A stretch of DNA of 64,000 nucleotides from Marmoricola sp. Leaf446 (lineage in GTDB: Bacteria > Actinomycetota > Actinomycetes > Propionibacteriales > Nocardioidaceae), in NCBI RefSeq assembly GCF_001424755.1, contig NZ_LMRF01000001.1, positions 1,408,544-1,472,543 of the forward strand, in the 5' to 3' direction. Under the pieces are notes generated by a model. That model searched no databases, was not told the DNA's origin, and saw only the letters and a program-made list of their open reading frames with translations. Both the position numbers and the translations under genes were made by a program. Positions 2,593 through 51,268 of this stretch are shown here, in pieces; the first letter of the stretch is position 1; each line of letters begins with the position of its first letter.

Positions 2593-3683
2593 CGCGAGGA
2601 CTCCGTCCCGGTGGTGCCGATCGCGTCGTACTGCTCCTTGAGCGCGGGGTCGATCGCGGCCAGCTGCTCGGCGAGCTCGACCATCACGAGGCACTGCTTG
2701 AGCGAGGCGTCGTCCTCCATCTTGCCGTCGAGCATCACCGCGCCGGTGCCGTCGCCCATCGCCTCGACGACGCGGCGCGCGTGGGCGACGTCCTCGGGGG
2801 CGGGGGAGAAGACCTTGTTCGCGATGGCGATCTGCTTGGGGTGCAGCGACCAGGTGCCGACGCAGCCGAGCAGGAAGGCGTTGCGGAACTGGTCCTCGCA
2901 CGCCACCACGTCGGTGATGTCGCCGAACGGCCCGTAGTAGGGGTAGATGCCGTGCATCGCGCAGGCGTCGACCATGCGGGCGATCGTGTAGTGCCACAGG
3001 TCCTGCTGGTACGTCGGCCGCGACCCGTCGATGTCGCCGTCGACGGGGTCCTGGCGGACGAGGTAGCCGGGGTGACCGCCACCCACGCGCGTGGTCTTCA
3101 TCCGCCGGTCGGCGGCGAGGTCGGCGGGGCCGAGCGAGAGGCCCTGCATCCGCGGCGAGGCGCCGCAGATCTCCTCGACGTTGACCATGCCGCGGGCGGT
3201 CTCGAGGATGGCGTGCACCAGGATCGGCCGGTCGAGGCCGGCCTTGGCCTCGAGCTGGGCGAGCAGCCGGTCGACGTAGTGGATGTCCTCGGCGCCCTGC
3301 ACCTTCGGCACCATGACGACGTCGAGCCGGTCGCCGATCTCGGTGACCAGCGTGGTCAGGTCGTCCAGGCCCCAGGGGGAGTCCAGCGCGTTGACCCGGG
3401 TCCACAGCTGGGTCGGCCCCTGCCCGCCGCCGAGGTCGGGGGTGGCGCGGGCGATGTCGACCAGGCCCTGGCGGGCGGCGAGCTTGTTGTCGGCCTTGAC
3501 GGCGTCCTCGAGGTTGCCGAGCAGCACGTCGACCGAGCCGACCATGTCGGGGACCTTGGCGGCCATCTTGGGGTTGCTCGGGTCGAAGAAGTGGATGGCC
3601 CGGCTCGGGCGGGCGGGGATCTCGCGCAGCGGCGCCGGGGCACCGACCGCGAGCGGGGCGAAGAAGTCCTTGGCGCTGCGCAT
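2589..3683 (-). CDS. mcl1: Malyl-CoA / beta-methylmalyl-CoA lyase
   Basis: A 364-residue CitE-like lyase of the longer Mcl1 type. Readable blocks are PLAVGAP near residue 10, LLGNLEDAV (metal and CoA region), [65 protein letters not shown] and LDGKMEDDA. These match, from memory, the Chloroflexus and Rhodobacter L-malyl-CoA / beta-methylmalyl-CoA lyases, which reversibly cleave these esters to glyoxylate plus acetyl-CoA or propionyl-CoA. It is the first gene of a two-gene operon with the Mcl2-like gene. Crotonyl-CoA carboxylase/reductase and other ethylmalonyl-CoA pathway genes are not in the window. The ATG follows TAGCGT by 6 bases, so the transcript is probably leaderless. Confidence 0.85.
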
Positions 3684-5725: not shown

Positions 5726-5803
5726 GTACGTCCACACCGACGGCCATGGGCGGTCTAGCGTGGCCGCGACGGGGCCACCCGTCGGTCCCCCGAGGAGCCC
5801 GCC

Positions 5804-6679
5804 GTGCCCGTGACCCGCCGTCCTGCCGTGCCACTCCGGCCCGGAGTGATCGCCCTGGTGCTGTCCGCGGTGGTGGCGGCCGTCGTCGCCGGGGTCGCCC
5901 AGCCCGCCGCGGCGGCGAGCACCCCGTCCCGCGCGACCTGGGTCTGGGGCCGGCCCGCGCCGGGACCGCTGGTCACCTGGGCGACCAAGCAGCGTGTCGG
6001 CGAGCTGTTCGTGGCCGTGCCCCGGTCGCTGTCGACCTCGACCGACCTCGGCTGGGTGCGCGACGTGTCGCGCCGGGCCCACAGGGCGGGCATGCGGGTG
6101 GCGGCCCTGGGCTCGGCCACGGAGTGGATCGACCGTCCGGCCGAGGCGGTGGCCTGGCAGCGCGACGCGCTGGCCACCGGGCTCTTCGACGGCGTGCACC
6201 TCGACGTCGAGCCGTGGCTCCACCCGGCGTGGGACAGCGACCGTGCCGGGGTCGTCGCCGGCTACCTGCGGCTGCTGGACGAGCTGGGGTCCGCCACCAC
6301 GTCGCCGCTCGAGGTCGACGTGGCGTTCTGGCTGCACACCGTGCCCACCGCCGAGGGCGTCGCGCTCGACGCCGCGGTCGCGCGACGCGTCGACGGGCTC
6401 ACCGCGATGACCTACCGCGACACGGTCACCGGGCCCGACAGCATCACCGACCTCGGCGGCCAGGTGCTGGCCACCGCGGCCGCCGCGGGCAAGCCGTGCC
6501 GGCTGGCCGTCGAAACACGCTTCCTCGGCACCGACCCCGTGTCCCAGAAGCAGACCTTCTGGGGCCAGGGGTCGGCCGCCCTCGCCGCGGCCCTCGCCGG
6601 GGTGGACGCCGCCCTGGCCGGCCAGCCGGCGTACGCCGGGACCGCGGTCCACGACGAGGCCGGCTGGCGCGCCCTCTAG
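5804..6679 (+). CDS. Secreted TIM-barrel (glycoside hydrolase-like) protein
   Basis: A 291-residue exported protein. Residues 1-38 form a signal peptide: a basic start, a long hydrophobic core, and AAAAS at the likely cleavage site. The mature part resembles a GH18-type or related TIM barrel: DGVHLDVEPW has D134 and E136 at the end of a predicted strand, in the manner of a DxE catalytic pair, and GLTAMTYRD matches a later barrel strand. I cannot name the substrate; a chitinase-like or other polysaccharide-acting role is possible, and so is a non-catalytic barrel. A GAGGAG ribosome binding site precedes the GTG. It converges on gnd with one base between the stops. Confidence 0.6.
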   Translation: MPVTRRPAVPLRPGVIALVLSAVVAAVVAGVAQPAAAASTPSRATWVWGRPAPGPLVTWATKQRVGELFVAVPRSLSTSTDLGWVRDVSRRAHRAGMRVAALGSATEWIDRPAEAVAWQRDALATGLFDGVHLDVEPWLHPAWDSDRAGVVAGYLRLLDELGSATTSPLEVDVAFWLHTVPTAEGVALDAAVARRVDGLTAMTYRDTVTGPDSITDLGGQVLATAAAAGKPCRLAVETRFLGTDPVSQKQTFWGQGSAALAAALAGVDAALAGQPAYAGTAVHDEAGWRAL

Positions 6680-6680
6680 G

Positions 6681-8126
6681 TCAGGCCTCGACCTCGGAGC
6701 GGTCGCCGGCCCACAGCGTGTGGAAGCTGCCCTCGCGGTCGGTGCGGGCGTAGGTGTGGGCGCCGAAGTTGTCGCGCAGGGCCTGGATCAGCGCGGCCGG
6801 CAACCGGTCTCGCCGCAGCGCGTCGAAGTAGGACAGCGACGAGGCGAACGCCGGCACCGGGATGCCGGCCTGGGTGGCGGCCACGACGACCCGGCGCCAG
6901 CCGGCCTCGCCGTCCTTGAGCGCCTGGGCGAAGTACTCCTGGGTCATCAGGGTGGTCAGGTCGGGCTCGGCCTCGTAGGCCTCGCGGATCCGGTCGAGGA
7001 ACTTGGCCCGGATGATGCAGCCGCCGCGCCAGATGGTGGCCAGGTCGCCGGGGGAGACGTCCCAGCCGTGCACGTTGCTGCCCTCGACGATCTGGTCGAA
7101 GCCCTGGGCGTAGGCGACCACCTTGGCGGCGTACAGCGCGGCGCGGACGTCCTCGACGAACCCGGCCTCGTCCTCGACCCCCGGGGTGTCGCTGGTCTGC
7201 GAGAAGACCGCACGGGCGGCCTCGCGCTGCTCCACGTGGCCCGAGACGCTGCGGGCGAAGGTGGCCTCGGCGATGCCGGTGACGGGGACGCCGAGGTCGA
7301 GCGCGCTCTGCACGGTCCAGCGGCCGGTGCCCTTCTGCTCGGCCGCGTCGACGACCACGTCGACGAACGGCTGACCGGTGGCACCGTCGGTGTGCGACAG
7401 CACGTCGGCGGTCATCTCGATCAGGAAGGAGTCGAGGTCGCCCTCGTTCCACTGCGAGAACACCTCGGCGAGCTGGGCGGGCTCCTTGCCGAGCACGTTG
7501 CGCAGCACGTCGTAGGCCTCGGCGATGAGCTGCATGTCGGCGTACTCGATGCCGTTGTGCACCATCTTGACGAAGTGGCCGGCGCCGTCGGGACCGACGT
7601 GGGTGGCGCACGGGGTGCCGTCGACCTGGGCGGCGATGTCCTCGACCACCGGGCCGAGGGACTCGTAGGCGTGGTCGGAGCCGCCGACCATGATCGAGGG
7701 CCCGTTGAGCGCGCCCTCCTCGCCGCCGGAGACGCCCATGCCGACGAAGTGCAGGCCCTTCTCCTCCAGGGCCTGCTGGCGCCGCAGCGTGTCGGCGAAG
7801 TGGGCGTTGCCCCCGTCGACGACGATGTCGCCCTCGTCGAGCAGCGGGACCAGGTCGTCGATGACGGCGTCGGTGGCCTCGCCGGCCTTGACCATGATGA
7901 TGATCGCGCGGGGCTGGCGGATGCTCGCGACGAAGTCCTCCAGCGACTCCGACCCGACGAAGTCGCCGTCGTCGCCGTGCTCCTCCAGGAGCCGCGTCAT
8001 CTTCTCCGTCGACCGGTTGTGCACGGCGATGGTGTGGCCGTGGCGGGCGATGTTGCGGGCCAGGTTGCTGCCCATCACGGCCAGGCCGGTCAGGCCGATC
8101 TCGGCGGTCGGCTCGGGTGTGCTCAC
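6681..8126 (-). CDS. gnd: 6-phosphogluconate dehydrogenase, decarboxylating
   Basis: A 481-residue long-form 6-phosphogluconate dehydrogenase that converts 6-phosphogluconate to ribulose-5-phosphate and CO2 with reduction of NADP+. The N-terminal Rossmann region (GLAVMGSNLARNIARHGH, then VHNRS) suggests NADP specificity. GGNAHF, MGVSGGEEGALNGPSIM, KMVHNGIEYADMQ and WRGGCIIRAKFLD are family hallmarks, and TDREGSFHTLW closes the protein. It sits apart from the main pentose-phosphate operon at 33-41 kb. The GTG start has a GAGGAG ribosome binding site 5 bases upstream. Confidence 0.95.
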   Translation of the reverse strand: MSTPEPTAEIGLTGLAVMGSNLARNIARHGHTIAVHNRSTEKMTRLLEEHGDDGDFVGSESLEDFVASIRQPRAIIIMVKAGEATDAVIDDLVPLLDEGDIVVDGGNAHFADTLRRQQALEEKGLHFVGMGVSGGEEGALNGPSIMVGGSDHAYESLGPVVEDIAAQVDGTPCATHVGPDGAGHFVKMVHNGIEYADMQLIAEAYDVLRNVLGKEPAQLAEVFSQWNEGDLDSFLIEMTADVLSHTDGATGQPFVDVVVDAAEQKGTGRWTVQSALDLGVPVTGIAEATFARSVSGHVEQREAARAVFSQTSDTPGVEDEAGFVEDVRAALYAAKVVAYAQGFDQIVEGSNVHGWDVSPGDLATIWRGGCIIRAKFLDRIREAYEAEPDLTTLMTQEYFAQALKDGEAGWRRVVVAATQAGIPVPAFASSLSYFDALRRDRLPAALIQALRDNFGAHTYARTDREGSFHTLWAGDRSEVEA

Positions 8127-8211
8127 GTCTGCTCCTCGGTGCTGGGGTCGCTGGGTCCGGGGCCTCCCGGACCAGGCCGGTCGACGGGAGGAGGACCGTG
8201 GGCGACGTACC

Positions 8212-8246
8212 CCGGGTGGCGGCGGGTCACACCCGCCGCCACCCGG
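8212..8246 (-). terminator. Perfect 16-bp hairpin after ssuD
   Basis: Bases 8212-8227 pair without mismatch with 8231-8246 around a 3-base loop (CAC). It lies 9 bases past the ssuD stop on the minus strand, before gnd. There is no T-tract. It is the strongest hairpin I found in the window and probably ends the ssu operon. Confidence 0.8.
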
Positions 8247-8255
8247 TCGCCGGGC

Positions 8256-9407
8256 TCAGCCGCGGAGCAGCCCCTCGCGGCGCAGCACGGGCTTGACGCC
8301 CTCGGCGAACCAGTACGCCTCCTCGACGTGCGGGTAGCCGGAGAGCACGAGCTCGTCGATGCCCAGGGCGGCGTACTCCGCGATGGACGAGGCGACCTCC
8401 TCGTGGCTGCCGACGAGCGCGGTGCCCGCCCCGCCGCGCACCAGGCCGACGCCGGCCCACAGGCCGGGGTGGATCTCCAGCTCGTGGGCGTCGGTGAAGC
8501 CGGTGCGCTCGGTCGAGGCGCCGTGCAGCGCCCGCATCCGCTGCTGGCCGACCGACTGGCTGGCGCCCAGCGCCTCCTGGGCCCTGGCCACGTCGGCGGG
8601 GTCGAGCTCGGAGAGCATCTGCTGCGCCACCGCCCACGCGGCCTCACTCGTGTCGCGGGTGATGACGTGCAGCCGGATCCCGAAGCGCAGCGTGCGGCCC
8701 TGCTCCTTGGCGAGGCCGCGGATCCAGTCGAGCTTCTCCGCCACCGCGCTCGGCGGCTCGCCCCAGGTCAGGTAGACGTCGACGTGCTTGGCCGCCACCG
8801 GTCCGGCGGGGGCCGAGGAGCCACCGAAGTAGAGCTGCGGCAGCGGGTCGGGCGCCTGCCGCACGCGGGCGTCGGTGACGTCGTAGAAGTCGCCGGCGAA
8901 GTCGACGCCCTGCTCCTGCCACGCCCCGCGCAGCACGGTGAGGAACTCGTCGGTGCGGGCGTACCGCTCCGCGGAGCCGAACGACGCGGGGTCGCCGAAG
9001 CGGCGCTGCTCCGCGGGCTCGCCGCCCGTGACGATGTTGAGCAGCAGCCGGCCCCCCGAGATCCGCTGGTACGTCGAGGCCATCTGGGCCGCCAACGTCG
9101 GGCTGAGCGAGCCCGGCCGGAACGCGACCAGGAACTTCAGCCGCTCGGTCTCCCGCAGCAGCGCGGCCGTGGTGAGCCACGCGTCCTCGCACCAGGTGCC
9201 GGTCGGGGTGAGCACGCCGTCGAAGTCGAGCAGCTCGGCGGTGCGGGCCACCTGGGCCAGGTAGTCGATGGTCGGCGGTCGGAACTGCGACGCGCTCCCC
9301 GCGGACCCCGGTCCCTGGCCGATGCCGCGGGGCACCGAGTGCCCGCCGCCGACCAGGGACCGGCTGTCGCCGGTCGTGGGCAGGAACCAGTGCAGCTTCA
9401 GGCTCAC
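8256..9407 (-). CDS. ssuD: FMNH2-dependent alkanesulfonate monooxygenase-like LLM protein
   Basis: A 383-residue luciferase-like monooxygenase of the SsuD type, expected to use FMNH2 and O2 to release sulfite from alkanesulfonates. Blocks include LKLHWFLPTTGDSR at the start, GVLTPTGTWCEDAWL, FRPGSLSPTLAAQMA, GRLLLNIVTGGEP, ERYARTDEFL, LYFGGSS and VYLTWGEPP, all typical of SsuD. It is the last gene of the ssu operon; its GTG overlaps the ssuA stop by 4 bases. The flavin reductase partner (SsuE) is not nearby and must come from elsewhere in the genome. A strong hairpin follows the gene. Confidence 0.9.
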   Translation of the reverse strand: MSLKLHWFLPTTGDSRSLVGGGHSVPRGIGQGPGSAGSASQFRPPTIDYLAQVARTAELLDFDGVLTPTGTWCEDAWLTTAALLRETERLKFLVAFRPGSLSPTLAAQMASTYQRISGGRLLLNIVTGGEPAEQRRFGDPASFGSAERYARTDEFLTVLRGAWQEQGVDFAGDFYDVTDARVRQAPDPLPQLYFGGSSAPAGPVAAKHVDVYLTWGEPPSAVAEKLDWIRGLAKEQGRTLRFGIRLHVITRDTSEAAWAVAQQMLSELDPADVARAQEALGASQSVGQQRMRALHGASTERTGFTDAHELEIHPGLWAGVGLVRGGAGTALVGSHEEVASSIAEYAALGIDELVLSGYPHVEEAYWFAEGVKPVLRREGLLRG

Positions 9408-45916: not shown

Positions 45917-46429
45917 TCAGAGCAGACCCTTGACGTACGCCGCCTGGCCGAGGTGCTGCAGGCAGTCGCCGATCACGCTCACCAGACGGACGCCGGCCGT
46001 CACCGGCGGGTCCCAGCCCTCGTCGACCACCCGGTCGAGCTCGTCGGGTCCGACCCCGGAGACCGGGTCCAGCCGACGCAGGTAGGACAGCGTCCGCTCG
46101 TGGACGGCCTCGTGGTAGGCCACCAGCAGGTCCAGGTCGGCGACGCGCACGGCCGCGACCTCCTCGGGACCGTGGCCGTAGCCGAAGTCCTCGATGTCGA
46201 GCGGCAGGTCGAACCGCGAGGCCCAGCCCGCCCAGGCCTGCGCGTCGCCGGAGAGGCCGGCGACGTGGTCGTCGAGCACCCGGGAGGTGTGCCACAGCAG
46301 CCACACGACCGGGTTGCCCCGGTCTAGCGGCCGCTGGTGGGCCTGCTCCAGGTCGAGCCCGTCGACGACGGAGACGACCAGCTCGCGGACGCGTCCGACG
46401 TGGTCGACCAGCAGCGCGTGGGGGTCCAT
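45917..46429 (-). CDS. DinB / mycothiol-dependent-isomerase-like protein
   Basis: A 170-residue four-helix protein of the DinB/YfiT superfamily. VVWLLWHTSRVLDDHV carries the first metal-binding His residues, with HEAVHERTL and CLQHLGQAAYVKGLL supplying others. Actinobacterial members are often mycothiol-dependent enzymes; no substrate can be named. It is a single-gene unit with TAGCGT 7 bases before its ATG. Confidence 0.75.
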   Translation of the reverse strand: MDPHALLVDHVGRVRELVVSVVDGLDLEQAHQRPLDRGNPVVWLLWHTSRVLDDHVAGLSGDAQAWAGWASRFDLPLDIEDFGYGHGPEEVAAVRVADLDLLVAYHEAVHERTLSYLRRLDPVSGVGPDELDRVVDEGWDPPVTAGVRLVSVIGDCLQHLGQAAYVKGLL

Positions 46430-46470: not shown

Positions 46471-48849
46471 CTACGGGGTGGGTGCGGTGGACGAGGTCGC
46501 CGGGGCGGACCTGCTGTCGGTCGGTGCGCTGCTGTCCGCCGGGGACGACGGCGCCGGCGCCTGCGTCGTGGTGCCGCTGGACGCGGAGGGCTCGGAGGAG
46601 GGCGAGCCGCTCGGAGCCGTGGATCCCGGGGCCTGCGGTGAGGTGCGGGGGGACTCCGGGGCGGCCGTGGCCGAGCTCGCGGAACTGCTCGAGGGGCTGG
46701 GTGAGCTGCTCGCGGTGGCCGACGCCGTCCCGGCCGCCACCGGTGGCGCGCTGCCCAGGATGGCGACGATCTCGGCCTTGAAGCCCTCGAGCCGCGCCGC
46801 GACCTCCGCGAGCGGGTAGGAGGTGATGGTGCGGCCGAGCTCGGTCAGCCGGCCCCAGACCTCGCCCAGGGCGAGCAGCTGCTCCTCGCCCGGCTCGCTC
46901 CCCACCGAGAGGACCAGCTGGTTGGCGATGGCCGCCGTGATGCAGCGGTAGCAGTCGTAGTTGGCGGCGACCGCGAGGTTCTGCGGGACGATCACCCGCG
47001 CGTCGTCCATCACCAGGACGACCTGGAAGGCGACGGCGACGGTCACGCAGTTGGAGCACGACGCGTAGGCGCGAGCCTCGTTGACCTGGAGCACCTCGTC
47101 GCCCTCGGCCCACACCAGGGCGAACGCCACGTCGTAGGACACGCTGTCGTCGCGCGTGTTGACGGCGAGGGCCTGGTTGTCGCCCTGTGACGGGGGGAGC
47201 GGCCGGTCGAAGGGGAACACCCACGGCTGCTCCGCGCCCTCGCCCGCCCCGCTCGCGTCGCCCGCGTCGCCCGTGTCGCTGGGCACGAGCACCATCGCCA
47301 GCCGCGGCTTCGCCTTGGTGGGCAGCCGCTCGCCCGTCCCGAAGGTCGCGGCCAGCGGGTCGGAGCCCGCCAGGCGCCGTTCGGCGGCGGCTCCCGTGAC
47401 CGAGGCCGACGCAGCCGGGGCGGCTTCGACGGCCGGCCCGGTCGCCGCACCGGGCAGGGCGGCGGTCAGGAGGCCCTTCTCGTCGGGCCCGATGGGCCGG
47501 TAGGCGCCCGGGCGCGGGGCCCAGGCGAAGGACAGGAAGATCGCGACGGCGGCCACGAGCGCCACGGCCGCGGCCCGACGGCCGACGGAGCCGCGGCTCC
47601 AGGCCACCAGCCCGGTGCTCCAGCGCAGCACGAGGCGGCCGAGGATCATCCCCCCGGCCACGACGGGCAGGACGACGGCCAGCACCTGGACCACCTGGGC
47701 GGCGACGTCGACGGGGTCGCCCTGGGACCAGGCGGCGCCGACGGCCGAGGAGCTGTCGCCCACCGCGGACCAGGCGGAGCCGACCAGCCGGGGGAAGGCC
47801 TTGACGAGCGTGAACAGCATGAAGGCCATGAGCGGCACGGTCACCAGCACCCAGGCCGTGATGACGACCCGTGCCCAGGGCTTGAGCACGCGGTTCTCGT
47901 CGTCGCGCCAGTGGTGCGGCAGCAGGCCCAGGAGCGTGGGCCGGATGCGCTGGTAGAGGTCGGGGACACCGGTGAGGTCGGCGAGCACGTGGTAGCCGTC
48001 GAAGCGGAGCAGGGGCATCAGCTGCTGCACCATCTGCAGGACCTGCGTGGCCACGAGGAGCAGCAGGGCGTCCCAGCCGGTGGCCCGCCAACCGACGAAC
48101 GTGAGCACCACCACGACCGCGTTGAAGTAGAGCCCCCCCAGGTCCGTGCGCAGCCGTCCTGCGCGGGGGAGGCGATAGCTGTCGGTCACGTCGGTGTAGA
48201 ACGCCGGCCAGACCAGGTAGAGGCCGGCACCGATGACCCCGGGCACGGCACCGCCGTAGCGGGCGGCGGCCGCGTGGCCGAACTCGTGGAACCCGCCCGA
48301 CAGCACGGTCACCACGAAGACCAGGAGCAGCAGGTGGGGCCGTTCGAAGGCGTCGTACGCCGCCGGGCCCAGCCCGTGCCGGAAGAAGACCCACCCGGTG
48401 ACGGCGAGGAAGGCCAGCACCACCGCGCCCATGACGGTCGGGCGGAAGAGGATGCGGAACGGGTCGGTGATGCGGCGCGTGGAGGCAGGGTCGGTGACCT
48501 TGAACCGCATCTTCAGCCCGAGGAGGGGGTCGGAGCGCTTCAGGGCCGGCTCGCTGCCGTCGGCCAGCTTGAGCAGCCCCAGTGGCCGGAGCTGTTGGTC
48601 GACCAGCGTGGCGACGACCTCGGGGGTCACCTCACGTCGGACGCGCTCGCGCACCCGGGCGGCGACCTCCTCCGGGCTGCTGTGGCCGTCGATGGCGTCG
48701 AGGACGGCGTACAGCAGCGGGGTGAGCTGCAGGGTCTGTCCGTCACCACGGCGGACCAGGGCCGGTGGGGTCCGGTAGCCGGACCCCACCATGGTCCCGA
48801 GCAGCTGCAGGCCGTCGGCGCGCGCCGGCGCGTCGACGAGCGCGGTCAC
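46471..48849 (-). CDS. PqqD-domain / M50-type membrane zinc metalloprotease with exported CxxC domain
   Basis: A 792-residue multidomain protein. Residues about 40-95 look like a PqqD-type peptide-binding domain (LTPLLYAVLDAIDGHSSPEEVA). Residues about 135-445 hold roughly eight membrane segments with the site-2-protease/YydH-like signature H188-E-F-G-H192 and, about 90 residues later, L-R-F-D-G-Y-H (281-287), matching the second M50 motif. Residues 445-700 should lie outside the cell and contain two CxxC pairs (C598/C601 and C633/C636) within repeated VAFQVVLV and ANQLVLSV strands. The last 90 residues are low-complexity Ser/Pro/Thr. Such proteins are annotated as putative peptide zinc metalloproteases, function unknown. 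Its GTG overlaps the stop of the repeat-protein gene by 4 bases. Confidence 0.8.
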   Translation of the reverse strand: MTALVDAPARADGLQLLGTMVGSGYRTPPALVRRGDGQTLQLTPLLYAVLDAIDGHSSPEEVAARVRERVRREVTPEVVATLVDQQLRPLGLLKLADGSEPALKRSDPLLGLKMRFKVTDPASTRRITDPFRILFRPTVMGAVVLAFLAVTGWVFFRHGLGPAAYDAFERPHLLLLVFVVTVLSGGFHEFGHAAAARYGGAVPGVIGAGLYLVWPAFYTDVTDSYRLPRAGRLRTDLGGLYFNAVVVVLTFVGWRATGWDALLLLVATQVLQMVQQLMPLLRFDGYHVLADLTGVPDLYQRIRPTLLGLLPHHWRDDENRVLKPWARVVITAWVLVTVPLMAFMLFTLVKAFPRLVGSAWSAVGDSSSAVGAAWSQGDPVDVAAQVVQVLAVVLPVVAGGMILGRLVLRWSTGLVAWSRGSVGRRAAAVALVAAVAIFLSFAWAPRPGAYRPIGPDEKGLLTAALPGAATGPAVEAAPAASASVTGAAAERRLAGSDPLAATFGTGERLPTKAKPRLAMVLVPSDTGDAGDASGAGEGAEQPWVFPFDRPLPPSQGDNQALAVNTRDDSVSYDVAFALVWAEGDEVLQVNEARAYASCSNCVTVAVAFQVVLVMDDARVIVPQNLAVAANYDCYRCITAAIANQLVLSVGSEPGEEQLLALGEVWGRLTELGRTITSYPLAEVAARLEGFKAEIVAILGSAPPVAAGTASATASSSPSPSSSSASSATAAPESPRTSPQAPGSTAPSGSPSSEPSASSGTTTQAPAPSSPADSSAPTDSRSAPATSSTAPTP

Positions 48850-50258
48850 GGCGCCGTGGTGGTGGTGCCCTGGTCCGCGCCCCCGGCAGTGCCGTCGGTC
48901 GCGGGGGCGGGCTCAGGCGCGGGCTCGGGAGCCGACGCCACGGCCTCGGTCGTGGTGTCGGTGCCATCGGCCGAGGCGGTGTCGGTGTCCGGCGGCTCGA
49001 TCGAGCCCTGGTCGATGGCCGAGGTCTGCTCCGAGGTGGCCTCGGCGGAACCGGTGATCGACTGGGTGATGATGGCGTCCTGCTGGGCGAGGGCCGTGGC
49101 TTCGGAGTTCTCCGAGAGGATGTTGGCCGCCACAGAGGCGTCGATGGGTGCCGCGACGTTGGCGTTGGCCGCCACCGCGCCGTTGATGGGCGCCGCGAGG
49201 TCGGCGTCGAGGTCGACGTTGACGTCCACGTTGAGCAGGTCGCCCTTGAGCAGGTCGCCGGTGTCGAGACCCTCGAGGGTGTCGGTGACGTCGTCGACCA
49301 CGCCACCCACGGTGCCGACCAGGTTGCCGGCCGCGTCGAGCACCTGGCCGGTCAGCGGGTCGAGCGAGCCCACCACGTTGCCGGCGGAGTCGACGACGTT
49401 GCCGGTGGCGCCGTCGAGGACACCGACCACGTTGCCGGCCGAGTCCAGGACCTGCGTGCCGTCGACCAGCCCGGTCACCGTGCCGAGGACGTCGCCGGCG
49501 ACCCCCGTGACCTGTCCTGTGACGGGGTCCAGCGTGCCGACCACGTTGCCGGCGGAGTCGACGACGTTGCCGGTGGCGCCGTCGAGGACACCGACCACGT
49601 CACCGGTCGGACCGGCGACGGACGCGCCGTCGACGAGCCCCGTGAGCGAGCCGACCACGGCGCCGGTGCTGTCGGTGACGAGCCCCGTGGCCTCGTTCAG
49701 GGTGCCGACGACGGTGCCGTCGGCACCCACCACGTCGCCCGTCGCCTCGTCGAGGGTGCCCAGCAGCTCGCCGGTGGAACCGACCACCAGGGCACCGTCG
49801 ACCGGAGCCGCGGCGGAGGCGGCCTGGTCGGCGTCGGGAGCGGTGGCGTCGTCGACCGAGGTGGTGGCGGCCAGCGCGGGCTCGTCGCCGTCGGCGGTGC
49901 CGGTCTCCCCGGTGGCGGTGCCCGGGGTCGTGGTGTCGGACTGGTCGATGGTGCTGTCCTGGATGCCGGTCGCGGACGCATCGGCGTCGATGGTCTGCGT
50001 GACCTGCACGCCCTGGTCGGCCAGCGCCTGCGACGTCGAGCCGTCGGAGAGCAGGTTGGCGCTCACGGCAGCGTCGATCGGGGCCGCCACGTTCGCGTTC
50101 AGCGCGACGGCGAGGTCGATGGGTGCCGCACCGTCGATGGCGAGGTCGACGTCGGCGGCGAGGTCGAGGATCGAGACGACCTCCTTGTCCGGGAGGGCCG
50201 TCACCCCCTCGGACGCCAGGTCCTCGGCCGTGATGGGTGCGTACTCGTCGGTGCTCAT
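48846..50258 (-). CDS. Acidic repeat protein coupled to the M50-type protease
   Basis: A 470-residue acidic protein, not recognised as a named family. It has no signal peptide or membrane segment, and no Cys. Layout: a leader-like N-terminus (1-35); block A (36-106, with NVAAPIDAAVSANLLS); an Ala/Thr/Asp linker; tandem repeats at about 158-320 built on a unit of roughly 18 residues (DSAGNVVGTLDPVTGQV); block A' (345-417, with NVAAPIDASVAANILS), a duplicate of block A; and a Pro/Thr/Ala tail. Two long copies of about 56 residues lie at 204-260 and 261-316. The 4-base coupling to a PqqD/M50 protein suggests it is that protein's substrate or partner. The ATG follows a 254-base gap shared with sufR. 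Confidence 0.75.
   Translation of the reverse strand: MSTDEYAPITAEDLASEGVTALPDKEVVSILDLAADVDLAIDGAAPIDLAVALNANVAAPIDAAVSANLLSDGSTSQALADQGVQVTQTIDADASATGIQDSTIDQSDTTTPGTATGETGTADGDEPALAATTSVDDATAPDADQAASAAAPVDGALVVGSTGELLGTLDEATGDVVGADGTVVGTLNEATGLVTDSTGAVVGSLTGLVDGASVAGPTGDVVGVLDGATGNVVDSAGNVVGTLDPVTGQVTGVAGDVLGTVTGLVDGTQVLDSAGNVVGVLDGATGNVVDSAGNVVGSLDPLTGQVLDAAGNLVGTVGGVVDDVTDTLEGLDTGDLLKGDLLNVDVNVDLDADLAAPINGAVAANANVAAPIDASVAANILSENSEATALAQQDAIITQSITGSAEATSEQTSAIDQGSIEPPDTDTASADGTDTTTEAVASAPEPAPEPAPATDGTAGGADQGTTTTAP
49372..49600 (-). repeat. Exact 61-bp direct repeat inside the repeat-protein gene
   Basis: Bases 49372-49432 and 49540-49600 are identical (61 bases, 168 apart). They encode the GVLDGATGNVVDSAGNVVG core of the two long protein repeats. 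Exact identity at DNA level, third positions included, points to recent duplication or gene conversion. Confidence 0.85.
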
Positions 50259-50512: not shown

Positions 50513-51268
50513 GTGGAAATCCCGAGCCAGAGCCTCGCCCCCGGCGCCACCGGCGTCGTGGACGGGCACGACCGGCCGACGCGTGAGCGCGTCGCCCGCT
50601 CGATCCTGGACAACGGGCCCTCCACCGCGGCCGTGCTGGCCCAGCGGCTCGGCCTCACGCCCGCCGCCGTGCGCCGCCACCTCGACCAGCTGATCGAGGA
50701 GGGCACGCTCGAGTCCCGCGAGGCCCGCAACGTCGGTGCCCGCGGCCGTGGCCGTCCCGCCCGGGCCTTCGCCCTGACCGAGACCGGCCGCGACCGGTTC
50801 GACCAGGCCTACGACGACCTCGCCGTCCAGGCGATGCGCTTCCTGGCCGAGACCGGCGGCGACGCGGCCGTGCGTGCCTTCGCCGAGCGACGTGCCTCGC
50901 AGATCGAGCGACGCTTCGCCGACCTCAGCGACGAGCACCCCGAGCTGGTGGCGAGCGAGGCCCTGGCGCGGGTGCTCTCCGAGGACGGCTACGCCGCCGC
51001 GGTCCGCGACGTGCCGGTGGGTGAGCAGCTGTGCCAGCAGCACTGCCCCGTGTCCCACGTCGCCCACGAGTTCCCCCAGCTGTGCGAGGCCGAGACCGAG
51101 GCCATCGGCCGCATGCTCGGCCGCCACGTCCAGCGCCTGGCCACCATCGCCCACGGCGACGGCGTCTGCACCACCTGCATCCCCTCGGCACCCGGCACGA
51201 CCGGCGCCGAGTCCCGCACCACGACCGCATCGACCACCGCTCCCCAAGGCAAGGAGATCGTCACATGA
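50513..51268 (+). CDS. sufR: SUF operon transcriptional regulator SufR
   Basis: A 251-residue regulator with an N-terminal winged helix-turn-helix ([33 protein letters not shown] and a basic wing [12 protein letters not shown]). The C-terminal half has five Cys: C174, C178, C191, C219 and C222, the region that holds an Fe-S cluster in SufR proteins. It is expected to repress the operon when clusters are sufficient. It is the first gene of the SUF operon; its stop overlaps the sufB ATG. Confidence 0.9.

Follow-up and report, generated by a model that had tools for sequence, protein, structure and literature searches.

Two overlapping genes in a 64,000-nucleotide stretch of Marmoricola sp. Leaf446 (contig NZ_LMRF01000001.1, positions 1,408,544 to 1,472,543 of the forward strand; hereafter the window) encode an acidic protein with a leader-like start and a membrane protease, and the two form a dedicated, recurring pair. 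We hold it probable, with appreciable room for doubt, that the pair is a maturation unit in which a domain resembling the recognition element (RRE) of ribosomally synthesized and post-translationally modified peptides (RiPPs) captures the leader, the protease releases a hairpin-bearing protein, and an outer domain of the protease, here called the exodomain, binds or templates the product. Both open reading frames (ORFs) lie on the minus strand, and their coordinates (48846 and 48849) confirm the 4-base overlap given in a first-pass annotation of the window. The two genes are:

48846..50258, minus strand: substrate-like protein of 470 residues (ORF); of the 149 family genomes, 18 (the window's own among them) carry relatives with hairpin blocks
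46471..48849, minus strand: protein of 792 residues with a GTG start, joining an RRE/PqqD-like domain, a site-2 protease and an outer domain

The pairing was followed in a family sample of 149 genomes that counts the source genome of the window, in an independent class sample of 246 genomes, and in a named-genome set consisting of the best 80 of at least 573 protease relatives, picked by similarity to the window's protease. In the family sample, the substrate search matched 22 genomes, 18 of them with the leader or hairpin blocks, and the protease search, run with the low-complexity tail removed from the query, matched 21, of which 18 were the same genomes as those with the block protein. The block protein lies directly upstream of the protease on the same strand in all 18, and one genome (G024) holds two pairs. 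Family proteases lacking a block protein are accounted for by a contig end inside the gene (G059) and by copies of another branch (G067 and G082). Among the best 80 named loci, a partner with LPx[KR]E lies directly upstream in 77 by script and in one further locus (L168) by reading, hence 78 of 80; at L153 the partner is absent and the protease is cut at its start, and L196 keeps only the C-terminal part of the partner, beside a protease with an altered zinc motif. These 80 come from Nocardioides, Mycolicibacterium, Arthrobacter, Pseudarthrobacter, Sinomonas, Geodermatophilus, Blastococcus, Actinokineospora, Terrabacter, Pedococcus and Kribbella, among other sources, with one Chloroflexi metagenome-assembled genome also present. 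A neighbour-gene survey of the 80 loci, using a simple gene caller and flanks of up to 6 kb, found no third gene common to more than 15 of them.

The class sample gave the same picture. A leader-block profile matched 20 genomes, 15 of them strongly, and the other five carry short precursors; an exodomain match was present in 14 of the 15 strong genomes, the fifteenth (G215) lying at a contig end. Starting from the exodomain, which was found in 27 class genomes, a block protein on the same strand accompanied it in 14 and short LPxRE precursors in the same locus in 11, the remaining two being split across two contig ends (G158) or cut by a contig end (G312). Protease and partner distances are correlated (Mantel r 0.597 over 76 pairs, with 0 of 2000 permutations as high), a value to which taxonomy contributes, and the six partners longer than 400 residues pair with the six proteases nearest the window's (72.8-79.4% identity, against 59.9-69.9% for the other 70). 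The dedicated pair named in the first-pass annotation is thus upheld by the 78 of 80 named loci and the 18 of 18 family genomes with a block protein, and with short precursors counted neither a protease widely found without its partner nor the reverse was seen in these samples.

The acidic protein comprises the following parts:

50166..50258, minus strand: leader covering roughly residues 1-31, its boundary being assumed; LPDKE lies at 50181-50195
49941..50153, minus strand: hairpin block A, residues 36-106; AlphaFold2 (AF2) strands 52-57, 62-69, 75-91 and 94-105; predicted local distance difference test (pLDDT) 64-72 for the block covering 61-110
49308..49790, minus strand: central beta-flower/DUF3659-like repeats, residues 157-317 (Pfam; block pLDDT 69-93), in the long lineage only
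49008..49226, minus strand: hairpin block B, residues 345-417; AF2 strands 363-368, 373-380, 386-402 and 405-416; pLDDT 63-73 for the block covering 371-420
48849..49007, minus strand: acidic Pro/Ala/Thr tail, residues 418-470, a lineage addition

Its composition is extreme, with 76 Asp plus Glu, 2 Lys plus Arg and no Cys, and its hydropathy peaks at 1.41 in a 19-residue window, with no segment of membrane strength. The leader-like start reads MSTDEYAPITAEDLASEGVTALPDKEVVSIL. Across 54 aligned rows, L22, P23, K25, E26 and V27 are invariant, and the stretch LPDKEVxSILDL is nearly fixed among the partners, so that the alignment of N-termini proposed at first pass does reveal a shared leader. AF2 places a short helix at 11-16 of this region, with pLDDT below 50 across most of 18-56. 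Each block is predicted as two short strands followed by a long hairpin (75-91/94-105 and 386-402/405-416), and a profile of the N-terminal block (A7) matches the window protein twice (E 3.0e-47 and E 8.3e-25), which bears out the duplicated flanking blocks first noted in this 470-residue acidic protein. The central tandem repeats are likewise real, matching PF12396 at E 6e-7, over its cut-off, and PF21785 at E 3e-5, under its cut-off.

Substrate lengths in 77 relatives run from 200 to 506 residues, the usual layout being leader, block, short variable linker and block, with an extra Ser/Gly/Thr-rich tail in the mycobacterial partners. Of the 77, 49 finish in Q or QP where block B ends or close to it; the window protein ends in P. 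Any Cys at all is present in a single one of the 77. In 70 of 76 named pairs the partner has at most 400 residues, made up of leader and two hairpin blocks, and in 6 of 76 it exceeds 400. As judged from these alignments, what is conserved is the LPDKE leader together with a pair of hairpin blocks; a single lineage has added the central repeats and the acidic tail. The central repeats were rejected as the substrate-defining feature on the same count, only 6 of 76 named pairs having a substrate above 400 residues. The first-pass suggestion of a processing machine with its repetitive substrate therefore holds for the dedicated pairing and the conserved leader, and fails for the repeats as its defining trait. 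Matches in four family genomes (G037, G056, G077 and G106) arose solely through query residues 134-322, in the middle region, with no block protein, and were set aside; in G037 and G056 the ORF behind the match is a low-complexity GSVV repeat.

The protease model is of good overall quality (mean pLDDT 80, predicted template modelling score (pTM) 0.70) and divides as follows:

48535..48813, minus strand: PqqD/RRE-like domain, residues 13-105, from predicted elements (block pLDDT 81-97 over 11-100)
47509..48462, minus strand: membrane protease core with seven hydrophobic segments, residues 130-447, from the model, hydropathy and NF041824
48274..48288, minus strand: HEFGH zinc motif, residues 188-192, with H188, E189, G191 and H192 invariant in 67 rows
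47989..48003, minus strand: FDGYH, residues 283-287, with D284-H287 invariant in 67 rows
46753..47229, minus strand: exodomain, residues 541-699, containing both CxxC pairs; stand-alone relatives occur in other genomes
46474..46752, minus strand: Ser/Thr/Pro-rich tail, residues 700-792, from sequence, variable among relatives

The N-terminal domain is predicted to hold strands 15-19, 30-33 and 39-42 followed by helices 44-52, 59-70 and 76-87, and its assignment to the RRE/PqqD-like fold is a reading of that model by eye. Together with a match to the daptide protease family NF041824 over residues 30-349 (98.8 bits, below the cut-off of 300), these predicted three strands and three helices favour the PqqD-like domain proposed at first pass; Pfam PqqD itself leaves the window protein unmatched and matches 3 of 67 rows weakly (best E 0.0046). 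The M50 core and the two CxxC pairs proposed alongside it were found as well, with invariant motifs throughout the protease alignment A5, which holds 67 rows (the window and 66 of the 80 named relatives, L196 not included). The sequence hallmark of M50, an HExxH with a downstream DG motif (H188, E189, H192 and D284 invariant), sits in a helical context in the model, and FDGYH is presumably the third-ligand region. Pfam PF02163 (M50) does not match the window protein and matches 31 of 67 rows weakly (best E 0.011), and a Foldseek comparison with the Methanocaldococcus jannaschii site-2 protease (3b4r) gave probability 0.72, E 0.52 and a template modelling score of 0.40 by target length. The CxxC pairs lie at 598-601 and 633-636, and none of the four Cys varies across the 67 rows. 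Seven hydrophobic segments precede the exodomain by hydropathy, and since they lie between it and the N-terminal domain, the exodomain would sit across the membrane from that domain.

Inside the exodomain is a copy of a motif that also marks the substrate blocks:

46918..46986, minus strand: substrate-like motif of the exodomain, P622-x7-N630-x2-C633-x2-C636-x3-A-x-A642-x-Q644, gapless
47047..47058, minus strand: first CxxC (598-601), opening another copy of the motif that ends at Q609

The substrate block motif is P-x7-N-x2-[ST]-x2-[SA]-x3-A-x-A-x-Q, and the exodomain motif is the same pattern with Cys for Ser. In a later profile comparison, using 67 and 54 rows and a 29-column window, the two best windows shared one register, exodomain position 616 on block B scoring 23.8 bits and on block A 18.8 bits, against a background maximum of 7.0 bits over 49,878 windows starting before protease residue 500. 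Pattern counts, with A, S, T or V permitted at both Ala positions, found the substrate pattern in 76 of 77 substrates (65 with at least two copies) and 34 of 35 short precursors, compared with 76 of 15,400 shuffled substrates. The pattern C-x2-C-x3-A-x-A-x-Q occurs in 78 of 79 proteases, 53 of them with two copies, and P-x7-N-x2-C-x2-C in 71 of 79. The exodomain is likely, on this sequence evidence, to be related to the hairpin blocks of the substrate.

Some known systems share parts of this arrangement. As reported for daptides (PMC10036551), MpaP is an RRE-dependent intramembrane peptidase that removes the daptide leader; it has, as predicted for the window protease, an N-terminal RRE fused to an intramembrane site-2 protease, and daptide loci likewise carry short ORFs with a conserved leader motif beside the protease. 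The pair differs from daptides in that a decarboxylase, an aminotransferase and a methyltransferase are not shared across the 80 loci, in that the NF041824 score stays far below the equivalog cut-off, and in its substrate, a two-hairpin-block protein that in the window has 470 residues and ends in P, where daptides have a short precursor with a C-terminal Thr. MpaP is not known to have such an exodomain. EpeP/YydH, an M50 protease of the LiaK family, is thought to cleave and export epipeptide (PMC10885120). The window protease reaches 40.3 bits against the LiaK model NF058609, under its cut-off of 225. EpeP works alongside a radical SAM epimerase and is not known to have an RRE or an exodomain. 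In the TMcin system (TmcA, TmcP, TmcE; PMC13252029), a site-2-clan protease removes the leader at the membrane, and a membrane protein, TmcE, is proposed to form a beta-sheet with the substrate and so stop its self-oligomerisation; that system features a transmembrane helix together with a DUF3267 protease and an ABC exporter, plus DsbA in staphylococci. Such genes are not shared across the 80 loci studied here. The functional amyloid curli (CsgA, with CsgB as nucleator) offers no more than an analogy: its alternating strands bear Gln, and its partner on the membrane side shares the motif. No family match suggests a curlin repeat or a CsgG-type pore, neither having been the aim of a search. 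The enzyme of the pair is placed with the RRE-guided site-2 proteases in the broad sense but fails the daptide tests of score, neighbouring enzymes and precursor. PADLOC at E 0.01 returned nothing for the pair, profile searches of PDB sequences gave best E values of 0.17 (exodomain), 0.09 (leader-block) and 0.77 (protease core), and among the papers listed by searches of a literature that mostly excludes subscription journals none pointed to the pair, to LPxKE/LPxRE precursors beside RRE-proteases, or to the exodomain.

The maturation unit that we favour would work as follows. The acidic protein would be made with a leader of about 31 residues, and the cytoplasmic RRE/PqqD-like domain would capture it at LPDKE, as the predicted fold, the leader conservation and the gene coupling suggest. 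By analogy with MpaP and EpeP, the fused site-2 protease would then remove the leader at the membrane and pass the remainder outside. The released product would consist of two beta-hairpin blocks and a linker of variable length, which in the window protein contains the beta-flower domain. Outside the cell, the exodomain may pair edge-to-edge with the released hairpin strands, as nucleator or escort. On this view the product would most likely be a beta-structured protein that assembles with itself or stays bound to the surface. The analysis directly shows the coupling of the genes, the leader, the two-block layout, the relatives with short precursors and the insertion; cleavage, export and assembly are inferred. 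A bolder version, which we put forward tentatively, is a new leader-directed surface-assembly system in which protease, exit route and nucleator are united in one polypeptide with a Cys-bearing copy of the substrate hairpin. It is possible, and held with similar reserve, that such a system would act across actinobacteria on substrates ranging from 65-residue single-hairpin peptides to 500-residue double-hairpin proteins.

Several observations weigh against the maturation unit or its parts. The main difficulty, which concerns intramembrane cleavage, is that the substrate has no helix of membrane strength, which is unusual for the substrate of a site-2 protease. Its AF2 model has a pTM of 0.28 and so does not fix the placement of the blocks and the centre relative to each other, the hairpin blocks reach a pLDDT of just 63-73, and that of the exodomain is 43-71 up to about residue 640. 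Foldseek returned no significant match for the substrate or protease model. The topology count is weakened by a hydrophobic stretch at 594-622, inside the exodomain, that also exceeds the hydropathy cut, AF2 predicting it as a strand. As to the common motif, hhalign of the exodomain against the leader block (21 and 44 sequences) was not significant (E 0.079, probability 0.7%), and its sub-significant alignment was already in the P622-Q644 register; the evidence from profile windows and patterns is partly post hoc, because the width and the patterns were set after that register was seen. A third window of 18.0 bits placed exodomain position 615 on position 350, in a different repeat unit and register of block B, and 1 of 500 shuffles of the exodomain columns reached or beat the observed score. 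Finally, in G145 the two halves of the partner lie in different frames.

Three other explanations have to be weighed. The product may be a soluble secreted bacteriocin or signalling peptide or protein, RiPP-like and made without modification enzymes, whose leader the protease removes, with the exodomain shielding the hairpins in the producing cell as escort or immunity factor. Such a role would suit the short precursors (about 64-81 residues, with 1-3 of them next to the protease) and the related copies on two Streptomyces plasmids, as it would the TmcE escort, predicted to pair with its substrate by an extended beta-sheet in a proposed block to self-oligomerisation (PMC13252029). No transporter or modification gene is common to more than 15 of the 80 loci, however, and the window substrate, at 470 residues with two blocks and a folded centre, is a poor fit. 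We know of no bacteriocin precursor that resembles it, and we regard this explanation as unlikely, though less so than the two that follow. Regulatory proteolysis, in which the acidic protein would be cleaved inside the cell or at the membrane to free a regulator or end a sensing complex and the exodomain would be the sensor, corresponds to the classical role of site-2 proteases, and a ParA/MinD-like ATPase is joined to the protease in one branch. It seems improbable to us all the same: the partner has neither a match to a DNA-binding family nor a segment of membrane strength, a short precursor can accommodate no more than a leader and roughly one hairpin, and in some genomes the exodomain stands as a protein of its own that is probably secreted.

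Least probable by our estimate, and quite unlikely, is a true RiPP, with the acidic protein as a modified scaffold, the enzymes encoded elsewhere and the pair providing only the leader-removal step. The 98.8-bit match to the daptide peptidase model points that way, and RREs are common in RiPP pathways (PMC10036551), yet the score is under the model's cut-off and no modification gene is common to more than 15 of the 80 loci.

If the maturation unit is real, its interest lies in the following. RRE-guided proteases are known from peptide natural products, and this pair seems to extend that logic to proteins 200-500 residues long, apparently with no shared modification enzyme and in a widespread two-gene unit. 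This would be an unrecognised route of protein maturation, and perhaps of export, in actinobacteria; it would link short RiPP-like precursors to large structural proteins, present a processing enzyme that bears a template of its own substrate, and assign a common role to unnamed gene pairs that probably number in the hundreds, given at least 573 relatives of the protease (the best 80 examined).

The genomic site of the pair in the window has these borders:

45917..46429, minus strand: gene we take to be DinB-like, left border of the insertion, which adjoins sufR in pair-free genomes
50513..51268, plus strand: sufR, right border of the insertion, labelled as at first pass

This site was compared in 24 genomes of the genus, the window's included, with 1.5-kb flanks. 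Although sufR is present in 23 of the 24, the pair stands beside it only in the window genome (G000) and in G075. The site is empty in five congeneric genomes (G087, G004, G066, G113 and G104), because there the DinB-like gene directly adjoins sufR with no pair between, in agreement with the insertion proposed at first pass. Comparison with 96 other pair loci, at least 4 places being counted twice, gave no match to sufR, sufB or DinB at any of them. The empty congeneric site and these 96 loci suggest that the two genes travel together as one unit. We considered and rejected a functional link with sufR or the ABC-ctaA genes, on the same 96 loci and on the scarcity and weakness of ABC-ATPase matches (30-35% identity; three in the named set, two in the family set); the ABC genes near the window pair are part of the ancestral neighbourhood.

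At two pair loci the genes are damaged. Both genes of L196 (about 5740-8292) seem to be decaying together, unless this is an assembly error, and at L066 8573-9516, the G145 locus, the leader half of the partner and an out-of-frame second block stand beside an open protease gene, through a frameshift or a sequence error.

The precursors that go with cousins of the protease are about 64-81 residues long and carry LPxRE leaders. In G177, G191, G205, G253, G158 and the second locus of G176 there are 1-3 such peptides, each roughly 70-80 residues long; EELPDREAMSLI is an example of their leaders, and the leader-block profile picks these peptides out of 1,560 ORFs with E values of 2e-9 to 2e-16. Peptides of 70-80 residues with ELLPGREALGK-type leaders occur in G280, G304, G320 and G229, these copies resembling those of a Streptomyces plasmid; the profile supports these weakly (E 0.03-0.6 once a further round was added), and they are linked to the family by leader, position and motif. 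A third branch (G156, G067, G082 and G140) has the RRE-protease fused to a ParA/MinD-like ATPase, recognised by family search in G140 and by motif in the others, with two peptides each of about 64-80 residues (second-round E 0.001-0.012 for 7 of 8, none for the eighth). The C-terminal ATPase fusions are at L065 9729-12194, L084 7834-10125, L087 8483-10861 and L256 3618-5903, and two short LPxRE precursors lie upstream of each. No Pfam or NCBIfam model exceeded its cut-off for hairpin blocks, short precursors or exodomains among the proteins searched.

In the short-precursor branches the exodomain is often a separate protein whose start looks like a signal peptide by eye. At L085 8926-10104 in G067 an exodomain gene stands alone, with no RRE-protease recognised among the ORFs listed for the surrounding 20 kb; the ParA-type protease of that genome lies elsewhere. 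The exodomain protein at L256 5750-6736 has three CxxC-x3-A repeats rather than two, which suggests from its sequence that the exodomain is itself a tandem-repeat array. An ORF that we named by eye as a RecQ-like helicase is found near short-precursor arrays at L251, L252, L254 and L263, in two families. Among 72,556 plasmid records, 4 have a protease match, 2 of them from Streptomyces. On one of these Streptomyces plasmids the peptide, protease and exodomain are three consecutive genes annotated as hypothetical proteins; on the other (L266) the RRE-protease lies near two Gly-rich, Cys-containing peptides with LPER leaders (1512-1739 and 3410-3670), whose cores look unrelated to the hairpin motif.

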